A DNA stretch of 45,422 nt. Origin: Hyphomonadaceae bacterium (GTDB lineage Bacteria > Pseudomonadota > Alphaproteobacteria > Caulobacterales > Aquidulcibacteraceae). Made by a program: the position numbers and the translations under genes. The first letter of the stretch is position 1, and every line of letters begins with the position of its first letter. The DNA lies in contig JALHOC010000014.1 of NCBI GenBank assembly GCA_022843225.1, positions 1-45,422 of the forward strand, read 5' to 3'. The notes below the pieces were generated by a model. It was not told the DNA's origin. It was given only the letters and a program-made list of their open reading frames with translations, and searched no databases. Shown piece by piece: positions 7,874 through 45,422 of the stretch.

Positions 7874-9726
7874 GCGACCCCCAAAGCCGCGTGCAGCGTT
7901 TCAAGCTCCTTCGGCACATCGACGCCGACGAAGATGAACTGATCCACGCCAGCTTCGCTCAGCGCCGCCTCGCGCTCGCCCGGTTTGCCGGCGAGCACGA
8001 TCCAGCTTACGCCTGCGCTTTTCAGCGCGCGCGCTGTGCTAACGGCGTGGTCGGCGTAGGCGGCGTCGGTTCCAGCGATGATGGCGACGGGCGATGCGCT
8101 TGCCTTGAAGGCAGCGATGATCGCGTCGAGAGAAGCGTAAGCTGCTTCAGGCTCAATTGAAGCAACACCCCCCACGGCCAACAAGTTCAGCGCGAATTGT
8201 GCGCGGGGCGTGAAGTCCGCGAGTGCGCCAAGGTTTGCGAAGAACACGCGGGGCGACTTCCTCTCGGCTTTGTCGCGCAGCGCTTCGAAGGGCGCCGCCC
8301 AGCGGATGGGGGTAAGCGCAAGAGGATCGCCGGCATCTTGTCGGCCAACATCGCTGCCGGCTGGAAGCCGGCGGTCCGTCAGAGTCTCTGGCGTCTTCTG
8401 TCCAAGCAACGGAAAATCGGTAACGCCGGTGATCGTCTCTTTGCGTCTGGCAAACGCGGCTTGCCGTTTGGCGCGCGCTTCAGCGACATGGCGCTGCGTT
8501 TCGCCGGCTTGTGTCACGGCGACGATACCGCCGGATGCCTCGATCTTTTGCATCTTATCCCATGCAAGCTCGGCGAGGTCGCGCGTGAGCTTCTCGACGA
8601 ACCAGGCCCCGCCGGCGGGATCGGCCACGTGATTGAGATGGCTTTCTTCCATGAGCACTAATTGCGTGTTGCGCGCGACACGGCGCGCGAACGGCGTGGG
8701 CAAGCCCAGCGCGTCCGTGAAGGGGAGGGTGGTAATGGCGTCCGCCCCGCCGATGGTGGCCGCGAACGCGGCGGTTGTGACGCGGAGGATGTTGGTTTGC
8801 GCATCGTGGCGCGTCATCATGCGTTTCGAAGTCACGGCGTGGATGCGCGCAGCGCGGTTCTCTGGCTTGACGCCGCTGGCTTCCAGCACCCGCGCCCAGC
8901 ACAAACGCAGTGCGCGCACCTTTGATGCTTCAATTAGAACGTCAGGACCGACGGAGAGTGTAAACCCGAGCGTGCGCGACGCGTTGTCGATGCTGACGTC
9001 GGCCGCGCCCAGCGCGCGCAGATAGGCGATGCCACTCGACAACGCGGCGGCGATTTCTTGCGCCTCCGTGCCGCCGGCTTCGTGCACAGCGCGCGCATCG
9101 ACGCGCAGAGCGGTCGCGGCGGGTAGTGTGGCGTGAATACGCGCTGCGAACTGCGCCGCGTTGGCAATGTCGTCGGCCCCGAGCGTTCCGGTGCGCATCA
9201 ACGCGCCAATCGGATCGATGTTGAACGCGGTCCCCGGCGCGGCGACGCCTTTGAGCTTGGCCTCCAGCAGCTCCGCCGCCCAAAGCCCGCGCGCGCCAGC
9301 GTCAAGAGAAACCGGCGCTGCTTCCAGGATCACGTCGGCGAGCGCGAGGTCGAGATCGGCGTTGCTCTGGATGGCGACGCCATCGGCGCCGCTCGGATCG
9401 ATCTTCAGCTCGATCGCGGAAACCCCGCCACGCAAATCGGCGAGGATGTCGCGATTGGTTTGGTCGGGCGAGGGGTGTTCAAAGCATTGGCGGATCGCCC
9501 ACGCGCCTTGGCGCGCGCCGCGCACGAACGGGGCAACGCCGGCAAAGCCGGCTTCATCGCGCGCGGTGGCGATATCGGCTTCGCGATACAGCGGCTTAAG
9601 CTCGATCCCATCGGCGGTTTTGCCGACGAGTTTTTCCATCGGCGCGCCCTTGAGGCCCTTCTCGACCAGCTTGCGCCAATCGGCTTCATCCGCTGTTTCC
9701 CCGAGCTGCAGGGGCGCCTCCGCCAT
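7870..9726 (-). CDS. mutA: Methylmalonyl-CoA mutase, small (non-catalytic) subunit
   Basis: This is the partner subunit of the heterodimeric mutase. From the start at 9726 (MAEAPLQLGE; AAGG lies 9 bases upstream) it is 618 aa. It has the mutase barrel fold, with TNILRVTTAAFAATIGGADA and ARNTQLVLMEESHLNHVADP as family landmarks, and a degenerate C-terminal cobalamin-like domain: at the place of DxHxxG it has RVFFANLGALADFT, so it lacks the cobalt-ligating histidine, as expected for MutA. An upstream extension to 9792 is possible but would run through the divergent promoter region. The gene opens a minus-strand unit with GH25 and mutB, and is divergent from the flavoprotein gene at 9804; the 77-bp gap should hold both promoters. 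Confidence 0.93.
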   Translation of the reverse strand: MAEAPLQLGETADEADWRKLVEKGLKGAPMEKLVGKTADGIELKPLYREADIATARDEAGFAGVAPFVRGARQGAWAIRQCFEHPSPDQTNRDILADLRGGVSAIELKIDPSGADGVAIQSNADLDLALADVILEAAPVSLDAGARGLWAAELLEAKLKGVAAPGTAFNIDPIGALMRTGTLGADDIANAAQFAARIHATLPAATALRVDARAVHEAGGTEAQEIAAALSSGIAYLRALGAADVSIDNASRTLGFTLSVGPDVLIEASKVRALRLCWARVLEASGVKPENRAARIHAVTSKRMMTRHDAQTNILRVTTAAFAATIGGADAITTLPFTDALGLPTPFARRVARNTQLVLMEESHLNHVADPAGGAWFVEKLTRDLAELAWDKMQKIEASGGIVAVTQAGETQRHVAEARAKRQAAFARRKETITGVTDFPLLGQKTPETLTDRRLPAGSDVGRQDAGDPLALTPIRWAAPFEALRDKAERKSPRVFFANLGALADFTPRAQFALNLLAVGGVASIEPEAAYASLDAIIAAFKASASPVAIIAGTDAAYADHAVSTARALKSAGVSWIVLAGKPGEREAALSEAGVDQFIFVGVDVPKELETLHAALGVA

Positions 9727-9803
9727 TTTCGTGTCCCTTGACCTTAAGTGACTGTCGACGCCGTATTCGCCAGAAGCTAGGCAACCACGCAAGAGGAGTG
9801 ACC

Positions 9804-10766
9804 ATGGCCCTGCCGCCCCTGTTCGACAAGTTGCGCTTGCCCCTGGTGGGCGCGCCCCAATTCATCGTCGCGAATCCGGAATTGGTGACGGCGCAGTGTA
9901 AGGCGGGCATCGTCGGATCATTTCCCGCTTTGAACGCGCGGCCCCAGCCCTTGCTCGACGAATGGCTCACGCGAATCGAAGACGACCTCGCCGCTTGGGA
10001 TGCCGCCCATCCCGATACGCCGGCCGCGCCTTATGCGGTGAACCAGATCGTGCACCGGACCAACGAACGTCTGGAGCAGGACGTTGCGTCATGCGTCAAA
10101 CACAAAGTCCCGATTGTCATCACGTCTTTGGGCGCGCGCCAGGATGTGAATGACGCCATCCATTCTTACGGCGGCATCGTGCTGCACGACATCATCAATG
10201 TGGCTTTCGCCAAGAAGGCGCTGGAGAAGGGCGCTGACGGTTTGATCGCGGTGTGCGCGGGCGCTGGCGGCCACGCCGGAGGCTTGTCGCCGTTCGCGCT
10301 GGTGCAGGAAATTCGCGAATTTTTTGACGGGCCGCTGCTGCTTTCGGGCGCGATCGCGAACGGCGGTGCGATCTTGGCGGCGCAAGCCATGGGCGCCGAC
10401 CTTGCGTATGTTGGCTCGGCGTTTATCGCGACCAAGGAAGCCAACGCCGCAGACGCCTACAAACAGATGATCGTCGATAGCGCCGCTGAAGATGTGATTT
10501 ACACCAACCTCTTCACAGGCGTTCACGGCAACTACCTCAAGGGGTCCGTGGTCAATGCCGGCCTCGATCCCAATAATCTGCCTGAGAGCGATCCCTCCAA
10601 AATGAGCTTCGCCAGCGGCGAGGGCTCCAAGGCCAAAGCCTGGAAGGATATATGGGGCGCGGGCCAGGGCGTCGGCGGCGTGCATGAAATCGTCTCTGCC
10701 GGGGAACTCGTGGCGCGTTTCAAACGCGAGTACGACGCGGCCAAAGCGAGGATAGGCGTGCGCTAG
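9804..10766 (+). CDS. Nitronate monooxygenase / 2-nitropropane dioxygenase-type FMN protein
   Basis: This is a 320-aa TIM-barrel flavoprotein. Family landmarks are the N-terminal LPLVGAPQFIVA, the phosphate-binding loop region GAGGHAGG (FMN site and catalytic His region), LLLSGAIANGGAILAAQAMGA and YVGSAFIATKEA. Relatives oxidise alkyl nitronates, or act as FMN-dependent enoyl reductases or dehydrogenases of unknown substrate. The chosen ATG has a good AGAGGAG Shine-Dalgarno; the frame is open further upstream (9738), but that stretch overlaps the divergent mutA promoter region. An 18-base palindrome follows 7 bp after the stop. Confidence 0.88.
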   Translation: MALPPLFDKLRLPLVGAPQFIVANPELVTAQCKAGIVGSFPALNARPQPLLDEWLTRIEDDLAAWDAAHPDTPAAPYAVNQIVHRTNERLEQDVASCVKHKVPIVITSLGARQDVNDAIHSYGGIVLHDIINVAFAKKALEKGADGLIAVCAGAGGHAGGLSPFALVQEIREFFDGPLLLSGAIANGGAILAAQAMGADLAYVGSAFIATKEANAADAYKQMIVDSAAEDVIYTNLFTGVHGNYLKGSVVNAGLDPNNLPESDPSKMSFASGEGSKAKAWKDIWGAGQGVGGVHEIVSAGELVARFKREYDAAKARIGVR

Positions 10767-36158: not shown

Positions 36159-36212
36159 GGGGTTTGGTCTTTCCGTTACTTGTCAGCAGAATAGGCGTTT
36201 TGTGGCCGGAGT

Positions 36213-39991: not shown

Positions 39992-40294
39992 ATGGCTTAC
40001 TCATTGGCGCTGGCCGCCCTAGGCGACCCCACGCGCCGCGCGGTGTTTGAGCGCCTGCGCTACGGTCCTGCAAGCGTCGGTGAGATTGCGCGCGGATTGC
40101 CGGTCAGTCGACCCGCTGTGTCGCAGCATCTGAAAGCGCTGAAGGACGCGGGCCTCGTGCGCGACGAGCCGCGCGGGACCGCGCGCATCTATCGCATCCA
40201 CGCCGACGGCCTCGTTGAATTGCGCGAATGGCTCGACAGCTTCTGGGACGACGCGCTGACGCGTTTCAAGCATCATGCGGAGAAGGACCAATGA
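39992..40294 (+). CDS. ArsR-family winged-helix transcriptional regulator
   Basis: This 100-aa protein has the canonical ArsR helix-turn-helix: ALGDPTRRAVFERL, then PASVGEIARGLPVSRPAVSQHLKALKDAGLV and a wing RGTARIYRI. No metal-binding Cys pairs (ELCVCDL or similar) are present, so it is not a classic arsenic/zinc sensor. This subtype is usually encoded with an SRPBCC/AHSA1 protein, as here: its stop overlaps the next start as ATGA (40291-40294). It probably represses its own operon through the inverted repeat upstream. Confidence 0.92.
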   Translation: MAYSLALAALGDPTRRAVFERLRYGPASVGEIARGLPVSRPAVSQHLKALKDAGLVRDEPRGTARIYRIHADGLVELREWLDSFWDDALTRFKHHAEKDQ

Positions 40295-40758
40295 ACGTTC
40301 TTGAGATCGCGCCGGTCGTCAAAACCATAGACGTGCGCCGCTCAGCGGCGGATGCGTTTCGCATATTTACTGCGGAGATGGGCGCGTGGTGGCCTCTCGG
40401 CACGCATGCGCTCTCCCCGGAGAACGGAACCAAGGCGGTTGCAGTCATTGTTGAGCCGCGCGTTGGCGGACGTGTCATCGAGCGCGGCGAAGATGGTCGA
40501 GAATTCCACTGGGGCGATGTCCTGGCTTACGAACCGGGCCGCCGTTTCGTGATGACTTGGCGGTTAGGGAGGGCGCGGGAAAAGTCAGGTGAGGTCGAGG
40601 TTGTGTTCTCTTCGCTCGATAATGTGTCGTGTCGCGTGACCCTCACGCACAGCGGCTGGGATCGCATGGAAGACGGCGGGCGTCTGCGCGAGGGTTACAA
40701 TATGGGTTGGATTGGCGTGTTCGAGCATGCCTACGCGCAGCACTGTTCTCGGATGTGA
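40291..40758 (+). CDS. SRPBCC (AHSA1-like) domain protein
   Basis: From the start at 40291 (MNVLEIAPVVKT) this is a 155-aa protein with a START-like hydrophobic-pocket fold: VDVRRSAADAFRIFT-type opening, EMGAWWPLGTHAL, VGGRVIERGEDGREFHWGDV, YEPGRRFVMTW and a C-terminal helix GWIGVFEHAYAQH. Such proteins often bind a small hydrophobic ligand, and are paired with ArsR regulators; the ligand and role are unknown. Translation is coupled to the ArsR gene by the 4-bp overlap. Confidence 0.88.
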   Translation: MNVLEIAPVVKTIDVRRSAADAFRIFTAEMGAWWPLGTHALSPENGTKAVAVIVEPRVGGRVIERGEDGREFHWGDVLAYEPGRRFVMTWRLGRAREKSGEVEVVFSSLDNVSCRVTLTHSGWDRMEDGGRLREGYNMGWIGVFEHAYAQHCSRM

Positions 40759-40840: not shown

Positions 40841-41704
40841 ATGGCCGATGTGTTTATCTCCTATGCTCGCGAAGATCGCGTGAAGGCCGACCAGGTCGCG
40901 CGCGGATTGCAGGCGCTCGGGCTAGAGTGCTTCTGGGACACTGAAATCCCGCCAGGTCAGACCTGGGCCGATTACATCGAAGGGAAGCTCTCGCAGTGCA
41001 AGGCCGTGATCGTGCTGTGGAGCGCGCACTCCACCGGCTCGCAATGGGTGCGCGAGGAAGCGCGCATGGGCCGCGACAAGGGCAAGCTCATTCCAGCGAT
41101 GCTCGATTCTTCACCCGCGCCGTTCGGCTTTGGCGAAGTACAGGCGGCGAATTTGGCGTCTTGGACCGGCGCGGCCAATCATCCTGATTGGGTGCGATTT
41201 TCGAACGCGGTGCATGCCGCGGTACGCGGCGCTGATGCGCCGGCGCCTGTTCGCAGCGCCTCGTCGCCCATGTTTGCCGCAGCGCCTGTAGCAAGTTCGC
41301 CATCGGCAATCGCGCCCAGCCAATCTCCGATCAGTCACATCGCACAATGCCTACGCCTTTATCTGAACGGCGCTGGCCGTGCGCGGCGCGCGGAGTACGG
41401 CTGGTTTGTGGCGTTCACCTTGGTGGTTTTGCTCATTGCGGCGATGGTGGACGTATCGCTGTTCGGCGTGAATTCTTATACTGGAGCGGCAAACTCCATT
41501 GTGATCACGGGTCTCGTGTCGCTTGCGCTCTTGTGCCCAATGGTCGCGGCGGCCAGTCGGCGTGCACATGATTTCGGACAATCGGGATGGTTGGCGGCGC
41601 TGACGGCGATCCCGTATCTCGGCTTCCTCGCGACTTTGGTGTTTATCTTCATCCCGGGCCAACCGGGCGAAAACAAATACGGCCCCGATCCCAAAGGGGT
41701 TTGA
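40841..41704 (+). CDS. TIR domain - DUF805 membrane protein fusion
   Basis: This 287-aa protein has an N-terminal TIR domain (about 1-130; FISYAREDR box 1, FWDTEIPPGQTWADYIEG, SQCKAVIVLWS, and W69 with putative NADase glutamate E73 in SQWVREEAR), then an Ala/Ser/Pro-rich linker (about 131-165), then a DUF805 integral membrane domain (about 166-287; LRLYLNGAGRARRAEYGWF, RRAHDFGQSGW, PGQPGENKYGPDP). TIR enzymes can cleave NAD+ or make signalling nucleotides; DUF805 is an uncharacterised three- to four-helix domain. GGGAG lies upstream of the ATG. It is followed by a second TIR gene with a nearly identical TIR domain. Confidence 0.85.
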   Translation: MADVFISYAREDRVKADQVARGLQALGLECFWDTEIPPGQTWADYIEGKLSQCKAVIVLWSAHSTGSQWVREEARMGRDKGKLIPAMLDSSPAPFGFGEVQAANLASWTGAANHPDWVRFSNAVHAAVRGADAPAPVRSASSPMFAAAPVASSPSAIAPSQSPISHIAQCLRLYLNGAGRARRAEYGWFVAFTLVVLLIAAMVDVSLFGVNSYTGAANSIVITGLVSLALLCPMVAAASRRAHDFGQSGWLAALTAIPYLGFLATLVFIFIPGQPGENKYGPDPKGV

Positions 41705-41708
41705 AGAT

Positions 41709-41720
41709 GGCGCATGCGCC
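41709..41720. repeat. 12-base palindrome between the TIR genes
   Basis: GGCGCATGCGCC is a perfect palindrome in the 44-bp gap between the two TIR genes, directly ahead of the strong AGGAGGGG Shine-Dalgarno of the second. It could be a small RNA structure or an operator; no further support. Confidence 0.3.
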
Positions 41721-41748
41721 CTGCTAGGACAGAACTCCAGGAGGGGAC

Positions 41749-42771
41749 ATGGCCGAAGTATTTCTATCCTACGCACGCGAGGACCGGGCCCGCGCCGAAC
41801 AGGTTGCGCAGGGACTGGCGGCGGCTGGGATCGATGTCTTCTGGGACAGTGAAATCCCGCCCGGTCAAACCTGGGCCGACTATATCGAGAACAAGCTCGC
41901 CCAGTGCAAGGCGCTGATCGTGCTGTGGAGCGAGCATTCCACGAAGTCGCAATGGGTGCGCGAAGAAGCGCGCTTGGGTCGCGACAAGGGCGTGCTCATC
42001 CCGGCGATGATTGACGCAAGCCAAGCGCCCTTCGGTTTCGGCGAAGTGCAGGGCGCGAATCTAGCTGATTGGAACGGTGACGCGGAGCACCCAAATTGGC
42101 GCCGCTTCGTGGAAGCCGTTCGCAGCGCCGCCGCGCGCGAAGCGCCGCCACGCGTGCAGCCGGCCATGAGCGCGCCGCCACGCGCCGCGTCGTCCGCACC
42201 AAGCACCCCGGCGCCGGAGAAGAGGAGCGGAATTCCAACCTGGGTTTGGGTCGTCGGCGCCGTGGTCGGCACTTTGGTGCTCCTTGGCGTTTGGGGATCG
42301 ACGCTGCCGGATACGACAACCGACAAGCCGCCAGAGACCGCGGCGATTCAGCCTGCGGCGCAGCAGCCAAATGTCGTCCCGCCGACAACGGATGGTTCGC
42401 CCCAAGCCATCATCCTCGCGCAATTGCAGCAGGCGCAGGCAGCTTTGGCGCAACAGGGTTTTCAGGTGATCGGCCAGCCGGCGACAGGCGGGCTCAACCA
42501 GGCGCAAACCTGGAACATCCCGGCTGAACTGCACATGGGCTTCGAGTATCGCATTCTCGGCGTTTGCGACCGCGACTGCACCGATCTCGACCTCGTCTTG
42601 TACGATGGGAACGGCGCCGCCATTCTGCAGGACACGGCGGTCTCCAGCCAACCGCTGATGGGGCTGCAACCCAATTATACCGGGCCGTACACAATTCAGG
42701 TGCAGATGTACCAGTGCACTATAGAGCCCTGCTATTGGGCGGTGGCGTTGTACGGGCGGGCGCTGCAGTAA
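41749..42771 (+). CDS. TIR domain protein with single membrane helix and extracytoplasmic beta domain
   Basis: This 340-aa protein has an N-terminal TIR domain (about 1-130) about three quarters identical to the upstream paralogue by my count, keeping W69/E73 in SQWVREEAR. A Pro/Ala-rich linker follows, then one transmembrane helix (about 174-192, WVWVVGAVVGTLVLLGVWG), a disordered Thr/Pro/Gln-rich stretch, and a C-terminal domain (about 240-340) with several cysteines (VCDRDCTDLDLVLYD, QMYQCTIEPCYW) whose beta-strand pattern resembles PPC-like accessory domains. The topology predicts TIR inside and the beta domain in the periplasm. AGGAGGGG lies upstream of the start. Confidence 0.82.
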   Translation: MAEVFLSYAREDRARAEQVAQGLAAAGIDVFWDSEIPPGQTWADYIENKLAQCKALIVLWSEHSTKSQWVREEARLGRDKGVLIPAMIDASQAPFGFGEVQGANLADWNGDAEHPNWRRFVEAVRSAAAREAPPRVQPAMSAPPRAASSAPSTPAPEKRSGIPTWVWVVGAVVGTLVLLGVWGSTLPDTTTDKPPETAAIQPAAQQPNVVPPTTDGSPQAIILAQLQQAQAALAQQGFQVIGQPATGGLNQAQTWNIPAELHMGFEYRILGVCDRDCTDLDLVLYDGNGAAILQDTAVSSQPLMGLQPNYTGPYTIQVQMYQCTIEPCYWAVALYGRALQ

Positions 42772-42774
42772 AGC

Positions 42775-43032
42775 CTAGACGCGGTTCTCAAGCACAAACA
42801 CGCGGACAGCCGAAGCGAGCGAGGCTTCGGGCGCGTCCTTGCCACGTCGTTCGTCGATTGACGCGATCAGCAGAGGCATGCTGGCGCCGCGCTCGCGCGC
42901 AATGCGCTCAAGCGCCGACCAGAATTGCGGCTCAAGCGCAAGCGATGTCCGATGGCCGGCGATTCGCATCGAGCGCTTCTGCAATGCGCCCTTCAAGCTC
43001 ATCTCCCGATTAGCGCGGGGGCGCTCATTCAT
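42775..43032 (-). CDS. Ribbon-helix-helix domain protein
   Basis: From the start at 43032 (MNERPRANREM) this is an 85-aa protein; a later Met at 43002 (MSLKGAL) is an alternative. It contains the ribbon KRSMRIAGHRTSLALEPQFW followed by two helices (ALERIARERG, SLASAVRVFVLENRV), matching RHH_4-type ribbon-helix-helix proteins that are usually encoded after DUF4169 and fumC in alphaproteobacteria. A DNA-binding or structural role is likely; targets unknown. It overlaps the DUF4169 gene by 8 bp and ends 3 bp from the convergent TIR gene. Confidence 0.8.
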   Translation of the reverse strand: MNERPRANREMSLKGALQKRSMRIAGHRTSLALEPQFWSALERIARERGASMPLLIASIDERRGKDAPEASLASAVRVFVLENRV

Positions 43033-43225
43033 CAGACTTGCGGTCATCAACCTTGTGTCCGTCGAGCTTGCGCGCGACGGCCTCCTGCTCAGCCTTGGTC
43101 AGGCGCTTCTGGGATTTGGTTCGCCCGAATGCGGCGCGGTTCGAAGCGGCGTCCCTATCGGCCTCGGTTCGGGCTTTCGCCTTCCGCGCCTGCCGGAGAT
43201 TGATCACTTCGCCCATGCTCATCAT
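43025..43225 (-). CDS. DUF4169 family protein
   Basis: This is a 66-aa, highly charged protein with the DUF4169 pattern: MGEVINLRQARKAKARTEA at the start, then NRAAFGRTKSQKRLTKAEQE and KLDGHKVD near the end. It is almost entirely helical by composition. The true start may be Met4 (43216). The family is found next to fumC and a ribbon-helix-helix gene in many alphaproteobacteria, and its role is unknown. TATATA on the minus strand near 43265-43270 could be part of its own promoter. Confidence 0.85.
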   Translation of the reverse strand: MMSMGEVINLRQARKAKARTEADRDAASNRAAFGRTKSQKRLTKAEQEAVARKLDGHKVDDRKSDE

Positions 43226-44724: not shown

Positions 44725-44771
44725 AACGTTCTACCTTGCGAGAATCTGACGCGTTGTCGCTCGGGAGGGAT

Positions 44772-45422
44772 ATGGTGATGAGTGGGCGCGATCAAGCCGA
44801 TACCTCGCGGCGTGATGGGGGCGATTGGCGTATGCAGCTGAGGGACATGCGAACCGTCGCCGCTTTGCGCGCGCAGATGCCGTCGCAGGATGCGGTGGCG
44901 CGCCTCTCTGACCGCGCCTTGCGCGCCGCCGCGCATAATCCTGATCACAGCGATTTCGCCCGGGCCGCCGCCGTAGGCGAGCTGCGCGCGCGCAATCTTT
45001 CGCTCGATCCTTGGCGCATCGTCGTGCCGGGCTTCATCAAGCCAGCGGACATCGCCCGGCATGGCGAGCGGCTCTTCTTTGGCTGGGGCAGGGCAGTGCG
45101 GGTGTGGAGCGGGCGAGCGCTGTTCGTGATCCTGGCTGGTATGTTCATCGCGGTTGCGCTGTCGCCGAACCGCGAGCCGCTGACCACGGAGACGCGCTTC
45201 TGGATCGACTTTGCCGGGATGCGCTTTGACTCCGACGATGTCTTCGCGGCGCTCGGTCTGAGCATTCTGTCGCTGATCGGCATTTGGTTCTTCGCCTCGG
45301 CCTTGCGGCGTAAGCCCGCGCGCGTGTTGCTGTTGCGCAAATTCAACCAGCGCGCCTTGAGCGTGCCGCTCGAACGCATGATCGCCAGGGAACTACGGCC
45401 TTATGGCCATGTCGCTTCGCTC
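44772..45422 (+). CDS. Membrane protein, partial (runs off window end)
   Basis: An ATG at 44772 (GGGAGGGAT just upstream as Shine-Dalgarno) opens a frame with no stop to the window end, at least 217 codons. It has a soluble N-terminal part (about 1-115, Arg-rich, with DPWRIVVPGFIKPADIARHG), a transmembrane helix (about 119-135), a short extracytoplasmic loop, a second helix (about 160-178), and a cytoplasmic C-terminal segment beginning RVLLLRKFNQRALSVPLERM. The C-terminal pattern (LLLRkF, then an ELRPYG helix-turn) recalls an uncharacterised Rossmann-like domain found after membrane helices in some bacterial proteins, but too little is present to assign it. The minus-strand frames across here are shadows. 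Confidence 0.75.
   Translation, partial: MVMSGRDQADTSRRDGGDWRMQLRDMRTVAALRAQMPSQDAVARLSDRALRAAAHNPDHSDFARAAAVGELRARNLSLDPWRIVVPGFIKPADIARHGERLFFGWGRAVRVWSGRALFVILAGMFIAVALSPNREPLTTETRFWIDFAGMRFDSDDVFAALGLSILSLIGIWFFASALRRKPARVLLLRKFNQRALSVPLERMIARELRPYGHVASL

Follow-up and report, generated by a model that had tools for sequence, protein, structure and literature searches.

Near the end of the window, the 45,422-nucleotide stretch of Hyphomonadaceae DNA analyzed here, two genes lie in tandem on the forward strand. Gene A (40841..41704) encodes a protein of 287 amino acids in which a TIR domain (residues 4-108) is followed by a proline-rich linker (about residues 125-160) and a DUF805 membrane module (174-282), as delineated by Pfam, an AlphaFold2 model and hydropathy. 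Gene B (41749..42771) encodes 340 amino acids, for which Pfam, alignment, AlphaFold2, Foldseek and hydropathy give a TIR domain (residues 4-110), a proline-rich linker, a membrane helix (166-184), a further helix (218-235) and a beta domain (239-338). The genes are separated by 44 bp (41705..41748) with an AGGAGG-like ribosome site and, given this arrangement, are likely to share one transcript.

In Pfam profile searches both TIR domains lie above the curated cut-off of 28 bits for TIR_2 (PF13676), A with 78.7 bits (E 6.9e-22) and B with 83.9 bits (E 1.6e-23). The C-terminal part of A matches the DUF805 profile (PF05656) over its full length (positions 1-111 of 111; 91.9 bits against a cut-off of 25.7, E 4.5e-26) and contains three hydrophobic cores in hydropathy plots (residues 189-207, 220-238 and 253-271); B has a single one (166-184). 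In the AlphaFold2 model of B, residues 239-338 form an eight-stranded beta region, and alignment reveals four conserved Cys residues in this domain (C273, C277, C323 and C328). Local alignment of the C-terminal parts of A and B yields a score of 35, against a mean of 32 for shuffled sequences, and 53 of 200 shuffles reach it, so that no relation between the two is detectable. An earlier note, made from the letters of the DNA, had described two different membrane modules with unrelated C-termini, and both descriptions hold.

The best Foldseek matches to the model of B are the secreted subtilase Tk-SP (E 3.9e-7), similar subtilases and GOLD domains (target TM-score 0.80). These matches come without an aligned range and probably fall on residues 239-338. 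As modeled, this domain resembles the beta-sandwich-type fold of subtilase beta domains (Tk-SP, KP-43), GOLD and collagen-binding domains, but unlike them it has no significant sequence family, the sole Pfam match in the C-terminus of B being a sub-threshold PPC (PF04151; E 0.27, 12.6 bits against a cut-off of 25.9). Lysine or arginine residues precede the membrane helix of B and aspartate follows it. Membrane topology is commonly read by the positive-inside rule, and these flanking charges, together with the secreted-looking relatives of the beta domain, suggest an N-in/C-out orientation. A B-type beta domain is likewise present in a free-standing gene whose N-terminus looks signal-like by eye (L090:3995-4435), and at L092:7721-8881, where it is combined with a lipobox-like start, again by eye, and a TonB_C match of 24.9 bits (cut-off 24.6).

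Whereas the C-termini differ, the TIR domains of A and B are closely similar. Residues 1-110 comprise 85 identical and exactly 25 different positions, in agreement with the earlier count of about 25 in about 110; identity amounts to 77% over 110 residues, 73% over 128 and 68% over the first 160. The nearest other TIRs of the same genome are 40% and 38% identical to A, as expected if, as proposed earlier, a duplication gave rise to the two genes with their two membrane modules. At the DNA level 276 of 375 bases are identical over the first 125 codons, and third positions match at 69 of 125, which makes the copies old.

W69, E72 and E73 are present in both proteins. In an alignment of 57 TIR rows (28 A and 29 B, the G014 chimera described below and a second B of G004 counted in), F5, E72 and E73 are invariant (57/57), as is the stretch WSxxSxxSxxVREEAR across A and B; the segment of A from F5 to E73 (residues 5-73) corresponds to positions 40853..41059 of the forward strand. 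W69 is found in 54 of the 57 rows. The W69/E73 pair that had been put forward as catalytic-type therefore exists in both proteins, but only its glutamate, together with E72, is invariant.

Aligned by HMMER, at the level of sequence and with no superposition, E73 coincides with a glutamate of PdTIR (3h16), TcpB/BtpA and RUN1, which bears out the comparison with the NADase glutamate suggested in the earlier note; we presume that this is the catalytic residue of these proteins. The match of entry 7s2z, titled as an E100A mutant, ends at column 70 and not at 73, and the TcpB/BtpA chains, in which the Glu is present, likewise stop at 71; that the Glu aligned with E73 is the one studied in RUN1 is only hinted at. 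Both AlphaFold2 models match TIR structures in Foldseek, namely those of TcpB/BtpA, AbTir, SARM1 and the SPARTA TIRs. A and B thus share TIR fold and aligned glutamate with PdTIR, TcpB/BtpA and AbTir, but differ from them in that the match is confined to the TIR part. NADase chemistry may accordingly be supposed for both proteins. According to PMC7075850, more than 70% of all TIRs conserve the glutamate, which is thus common in TIRs generally.

A search of 61 genomes (the own genome and 60 relatives) gave a match to A in 56, mostly via the TIR domain, and 30 stretches from 28 genomes were compared with the genes of the window. Of 30 genus genomes, 26 have the A + B pair (G000-G011, G013, G016-G027 and G029), A being split over two contig ends in G017 and B cut by a contig end in G016. 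The order is A then B, with a gap of 27-86 bp in all 26 measured pairs, those of the window and G036 among them. As for the other four genus genomes, G012 has A alone with RHH_4 directly after it, G014 has a single gene joining an A-type TIR to a B-type C-terminus, and in G015 and G028 the interval enclosed by the flanking genes lacks a TIR match (G028 is 57% complete, with this interval on one contig).

UvrD and RHH_4 enclose the pair in almost every case. RHH_4 and DUF4169 genes (42775..43225, reverse strand; Pfam, synteny) follow B in the window. RHH_4 adjoins the TIR gene, with FumC beyond, in 27 of the 30 stretches, the other three reaching a contig edge first; 23 of those 27 also have a DUF4169 match (those without are G022, G026, G029 and G036). 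UvrD lies upstream in 26 of the 30, three stretches reach a contig edge and the 9.2 kb available in G005 contain no UvrD match. The names UvrD, PrmA, PepP and FumC are putative and were given from the sequences. An ArsR-type regulator and an SRPBCC (AHSA1) gene (39992..40758, forward strand; Pfam) are upstream neighbours in part of the relatives and are not thought to be part of the system. Beside FumC an open frame runs off the end of the window (44736-45422); many relatives match it at 31-56% identity, and Pfam assigns it to no family. Pfam revealed no known effector or defence gene among the tested neighbours in the window, and the flanks are those of a housekeeping region and not of a defence island.

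Two further observations concern these flanks. In many relatives a stand-alone, secreted-looking gene with a B-type beta domain (27-41% identical, tblastn) is located between PrmA and PepP, a few kb from the pair, at loci that include L090:3995-4435, L057:3985-4347 and L072:892-1233; it is absent from the window, where the space between PrmA and PepP (36159-36212) is too small. Some housekeeping genes match as two adjoining pieces, namely FumC, UvrD and PepP in L064 (G023) and FumC and UvrD in L090 (G015), which in these few-contig assemblies suggests indel errors.

A family search covering 60 genomes of 14 genera (E up to 1e-40), 30 of them outside the genus, detected the pair beyond the genus in G036 and G071, one genome in each of two further genera, and B alone at the site in G070 and G072. 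Co-occurrence of the two genes, which the earlier note had proposed to look for in other genomes, hence extends well beyond this one, although the partnership is not strict (A alone in G012, B alone in G070 and G072, a chimera in G014, neither gene in G015 and G028). Three genomes of two other genera (G079, G081 and G082) carry beside RHH_4 one TIR gene with a third kind of C-terminus, at L086:6770-8056, L087:8464-10017 and, in L088, near 8766-10043; UvrD is near the gene in G079, and the stretches of G081 and G082 show DUF4169 and FumC. This C-terminus consists of a hydrophobic stretch and a glycine/tyrosine-rich part that is MORN-like by eye only, with no Pfam match above threshold in the two proteins scanned (G079 and G081). 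Across the order, 398 genomes from 59 genera searched at E up to 1e-45 yielded full-length TIR-DUF805 proteins only in 26 genomes of the genus, G036 and G071. In a sample of the class with 385 genomes from 277 genera (E up to 1e-36), the window was the sole hit. Both searches scored the five best candidates per genome, so that weaker TIR-DUF805 proteins could be missed.

B finds no counterpart among 50,697 phage records, nor does its alignment in viral contigs. Among 118 plasmid records matching A, none covers 80% of the protein, and the best 20 of the 118 match over the DUF805 part only (about residues 169-285). Mobile anti-phage carriage was rejected on the basis of these searches of B in phage records and viral contigs and of A in plasmid records.

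The modules of the two proteins evolve at unequal rates. Over 21 genomes (G003, G005 and G006, having no UvrD, were left out) mean distances are 0.47 for DUF805, 0.43 for the beta domain, 0.26 for TIR-A, 0.19 for TIR-B and 0.13 for the four flanking housekeeping proteins, the membrane modules thus diverging about twice as fast as the TIRs. In six genome pairs dN/dS ranges from 0.012 to 0.077 for the TIRs, a sign of purifying selection; for DUF805 it is 0.05-0.30 and for the beta domain 0.02-0.43, with dS saturated in some cases. The closest pairs give 0.02-0.09 for DUF805 and beta, indicating purifying selection on these modules too, and the turnover of the membrane modules is therefore no proof of adaptive diversification. 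With species distance removed, DUF805 and beta domain co-diverge weakly (partial Mantel, r 0.215, 48 of 5000), not more strongly than most other module pairs, so that this signal does not single out a partnership of the membrane modules; a matching of DUF805 type to beta type was accordingly discarded as proof of partnership.

The DUF805 module also has a history of its own. Six species (G003, G004, G007, G024, G027 and G029) form one clade in a tree of FumC, UvrD, PrmA and PepP (100/100; some rows are sparse, that of G003 being 14% filled) as well as in the TIR-A tree (100/98), and their TIR-A domains have in common a two-residue deletion after R78. Their beta domains likewise form one clade (100/100), the second G004 copy included, and their TIR-B domains group together with that of G013 (91/86). 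Their DUF805 modules, in contrast, occupy three places in the DUF805 tree, that of G003 grouping with G018 and G023 (96/90), species of another clade. Pairwise identities among the six are 85-91% for TIR-A, 89-96% for TIR-B and 74-92% for beta, against 48-77% for DUF805; between G003 and G004 the values are 91, 96, 92 and 51%, respectively. Short and longer forms of DUF805 occur in 12 and 15 of 27 genomes. Tree tests reject a single DUF805 clade of the six species (AU p 6.85e-6). They also reject one clade of the short form, with p 1.1e-4 on the tree of TIR-A and p 5e-76 on that of the species. Since these groups were chosen once the TIR tree and DUF805 alignment had been inspected, the p-values serve as description; the pairwise identities do not depend on that choice. 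Exchange of DUF805 between species is thus supported. For the beta domain, the two types form one clean split (11/28) that the TIR-B tree does not reject (p 0.105); exchange of this module was dropped as a candidate, and we claim swapping for DUF805 only.

G014 carries an apparent A/B chimera. The TIR of its single gene is 89% identical to A of G013, with 2 of 13 thirty-base windows of the TIR DNA closer to B than to A of that genome, and its beta domain groups with B of G013 (99/96). The chimera comes from one draft genome (280 contigs, 81% complete). Taken together with the conflict in the six sister species, it sustains the module swapping postulated in the earlier note. In G004, a second B with a DUF805 end is located on another contig.

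Phylogenetic analysis of 73 TIR rows (29 A, 32 B, 3 third-module and 9 outgroup; 128 columns; the distant L006 left out) unites the 27 B's of the genus (100/96) and its 27 A's plus the G014 chimera (93/90). Sequences from other genera fall outside these groups: their B's stand together (96/91), A of G071 joins two third-module rows (95/87) and A of G036 stands alone. The data do not reject a single clade that unites all B's except G014 (p 0.341), and with only 128 columns the deep branching order is unsure. Gene conversion between the TIRs of A and B was also considered and rejected, identity within genomes being 0.679 versus 0.673 for random pairing (reached by 307 of 10000 permutations); this marginal excess and the separate A and B groups in the genus argue against strong homogenisation. 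Judged from these sequences, A and B had diverged before the genus arose, and exchange of the DUF805 part came later.

Among described systems, Thoeris offers the closest comparison. For ThsB1 and ThsB2 of Staphylococcus, PMC11312562 reports that binding and catalysis can be shared out between two TIRs, with an active site in which a Glu faces a Phe. The resemblance lies in TIR proteins encoded together, residues of the Glu-Phe type and a possible division of labour. Unlike ThsB1 and ThsB2, which act with the effector ThsA, A and B carry membrane modules and are flanked by housekeeping genes, with no effector recognised beside them: no thsA was found among the neighbours scanned (ArsR-type, SRPBCC/AHSA1, RHH_4, DUF4169 and one protein without a family). 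A search for STALD (ThsA-type) domains was negative in all 30 genus genomes, but also in the control genomes; SIR2_2 is present in 10 of the 30. Against the curated Thoeris model ThcB4, B scores 37 and A 27.8 bits (cut-off 220), and PADLOC ThsB matches, for which there is no curated cut-off, are weak (best E 4.6e-7) and mostly limited to the TIR stretch. Thoeris and the other listed defence systems were rejected.

A second comparison, for B only, is with animal Toll-like receptors, which likewise have a cytoplasmic TIR, a single span and an extracytoplasmic domain, the topology of B being that predicted above. The order is reversed in B, with the TIR at the N-terminus, and a beta-sandwich replaces the LRR; the comparison is one of working, not of shared ancestry. 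The best-studied bacterial TIR sensors are soluble and reside in mobile defence islands. In open-licence literature we found no paper on DUF805 together with a TIR domain, nor was this TIR pair named in the titles and abstract starts among the matches listed (subscription journals being outside this scope).

The A/B pair looks like a paired receptor. The reading that we prefer, with a probability of about 0.4, is that A and B are a co-expressed pair of membrane-anchored TIR receptors that read the state of the envelope and act on NAD+. Encoded as an operon, both would reside in the inner membrane, with the TIR of A held in the cytoplasm by the multi-helix DUF805 module and that of B held there too, its one helix carrying the secreted-type beta-sandwich domain into the periplasm. 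A change of the envelope, through damage or through a phage that enters or assembles at the membrane, would be felt by the beta domain and/or DUF805 and would bring the related TIRs together, which, once assembled, would split or cyclise NAD+ and set off a stress or abortive-infection response. In this scheme co-transcription, topology, heteromeric assembly, NADase chemistry, trigger and outcome are all putative. The stable flanks, the lack of phage or viral matches for B and of full-length plasmid matches for A argue against a mobile defence role, while the DUF805 exchange and the genes missing or merged in 4 of 30 genomes argue for a role in conflict; a stable chromosomal site and a conflict role are compatible. 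A more specific version, in which a two-receptor TIR unit at a stable site couples a slow TIR pair to a membrane-sensor module swapped like immune-receptor alleles, making it a Toll-like, envelope-reading NAD+ system of one family, is rather doubtful. If true, a stable chromosomal pair with two membrane anchors, one of them exchanged, would represent a bacterial equivalent to membrane TIR receptors. It would also provide a way to find what TIR receptors sense, sister species differing mainly in DUF805 being a natural domain-swap experiment, and a testable context for DUF805, a Pfam family of unknown function.

Other readings overlap with this one and with each other, and their odds do not sum to one. 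A and B might be independent receptors with different inputs, their tandem a leftover of the duplication. Genomes with A only or B only, and A/B TIRs that are only marginally closer within genomes than random pairs, point in this direction; a close tandem of one order, retained in 26 of 30 genus genomes despite wide sequence divergence, points away from it, and we regard it as somewhat unlikely. Another idea is that the pair serves envelope-stress or surface signalling as a core function of the lineage and not immunity, the TIRs making an NAD-derived signal or setting the NAD level in response to the state of the envelope. The stable chromosomal setting, the strong constraint, the inheritance of TIR-A and beta as a clade along with the six sister species, and the lack of phage and viral-contig matches for B and of 80%-length plasmid matches for A speak for it. 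Exchange of DUF805 would nevertheless be unusual for a housekeeping sensor, and in 4 of 30 genus genomes A, B or both are absent or the two are merged; we judge this alternative unlikely too.

The TIRs could also be non-enzymatic docking domains that build a membrane complex, with E73 kept for fold or assembly. Loss of W69 in 3 of 57 rows fits such a role, as does the occurrence of the glutamate in over 70% of all TIRs, most of which are described as assembly units in the survey cited above (PMC7075850); the invariance of F5, E72, E73 and WSxxSxxSxxVREEAR arguably exceeds what docking by itself needs, and we consider the proposal improbable. Finally, exchange and chimera could be assembly errors of draft genomes. 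The fragmented state of G014, a single incomplete genome in which a few TIR windows are nearer B, and the DUF805-ended second B of G004 on its separate contig would fit. The DUF805 conflict, however, is seen in G027, a one-contig genome, and in G029, with 10 contigs and 99% completeness, and both DUF805 forms recur in many genomes; we take an explanation by error to be very improbable.

The pair is one of several TIR loci in these bacteria. In the own genome, an assembly of 2.86 Mb in 117 contigs, TIR_2 is matched 11 times, on 8 contigs and in 10 cases above the cut-off, and genomes of the genus contain 4-18 matches to A. In some relatives, more TIR genes with other C-termini occur near the pair (L054:13896-14390, L057:11859-12275, L056:987-1403 and L072:3658-4149), suggesting that the interval from PepP to FumC gathers TIR genes.
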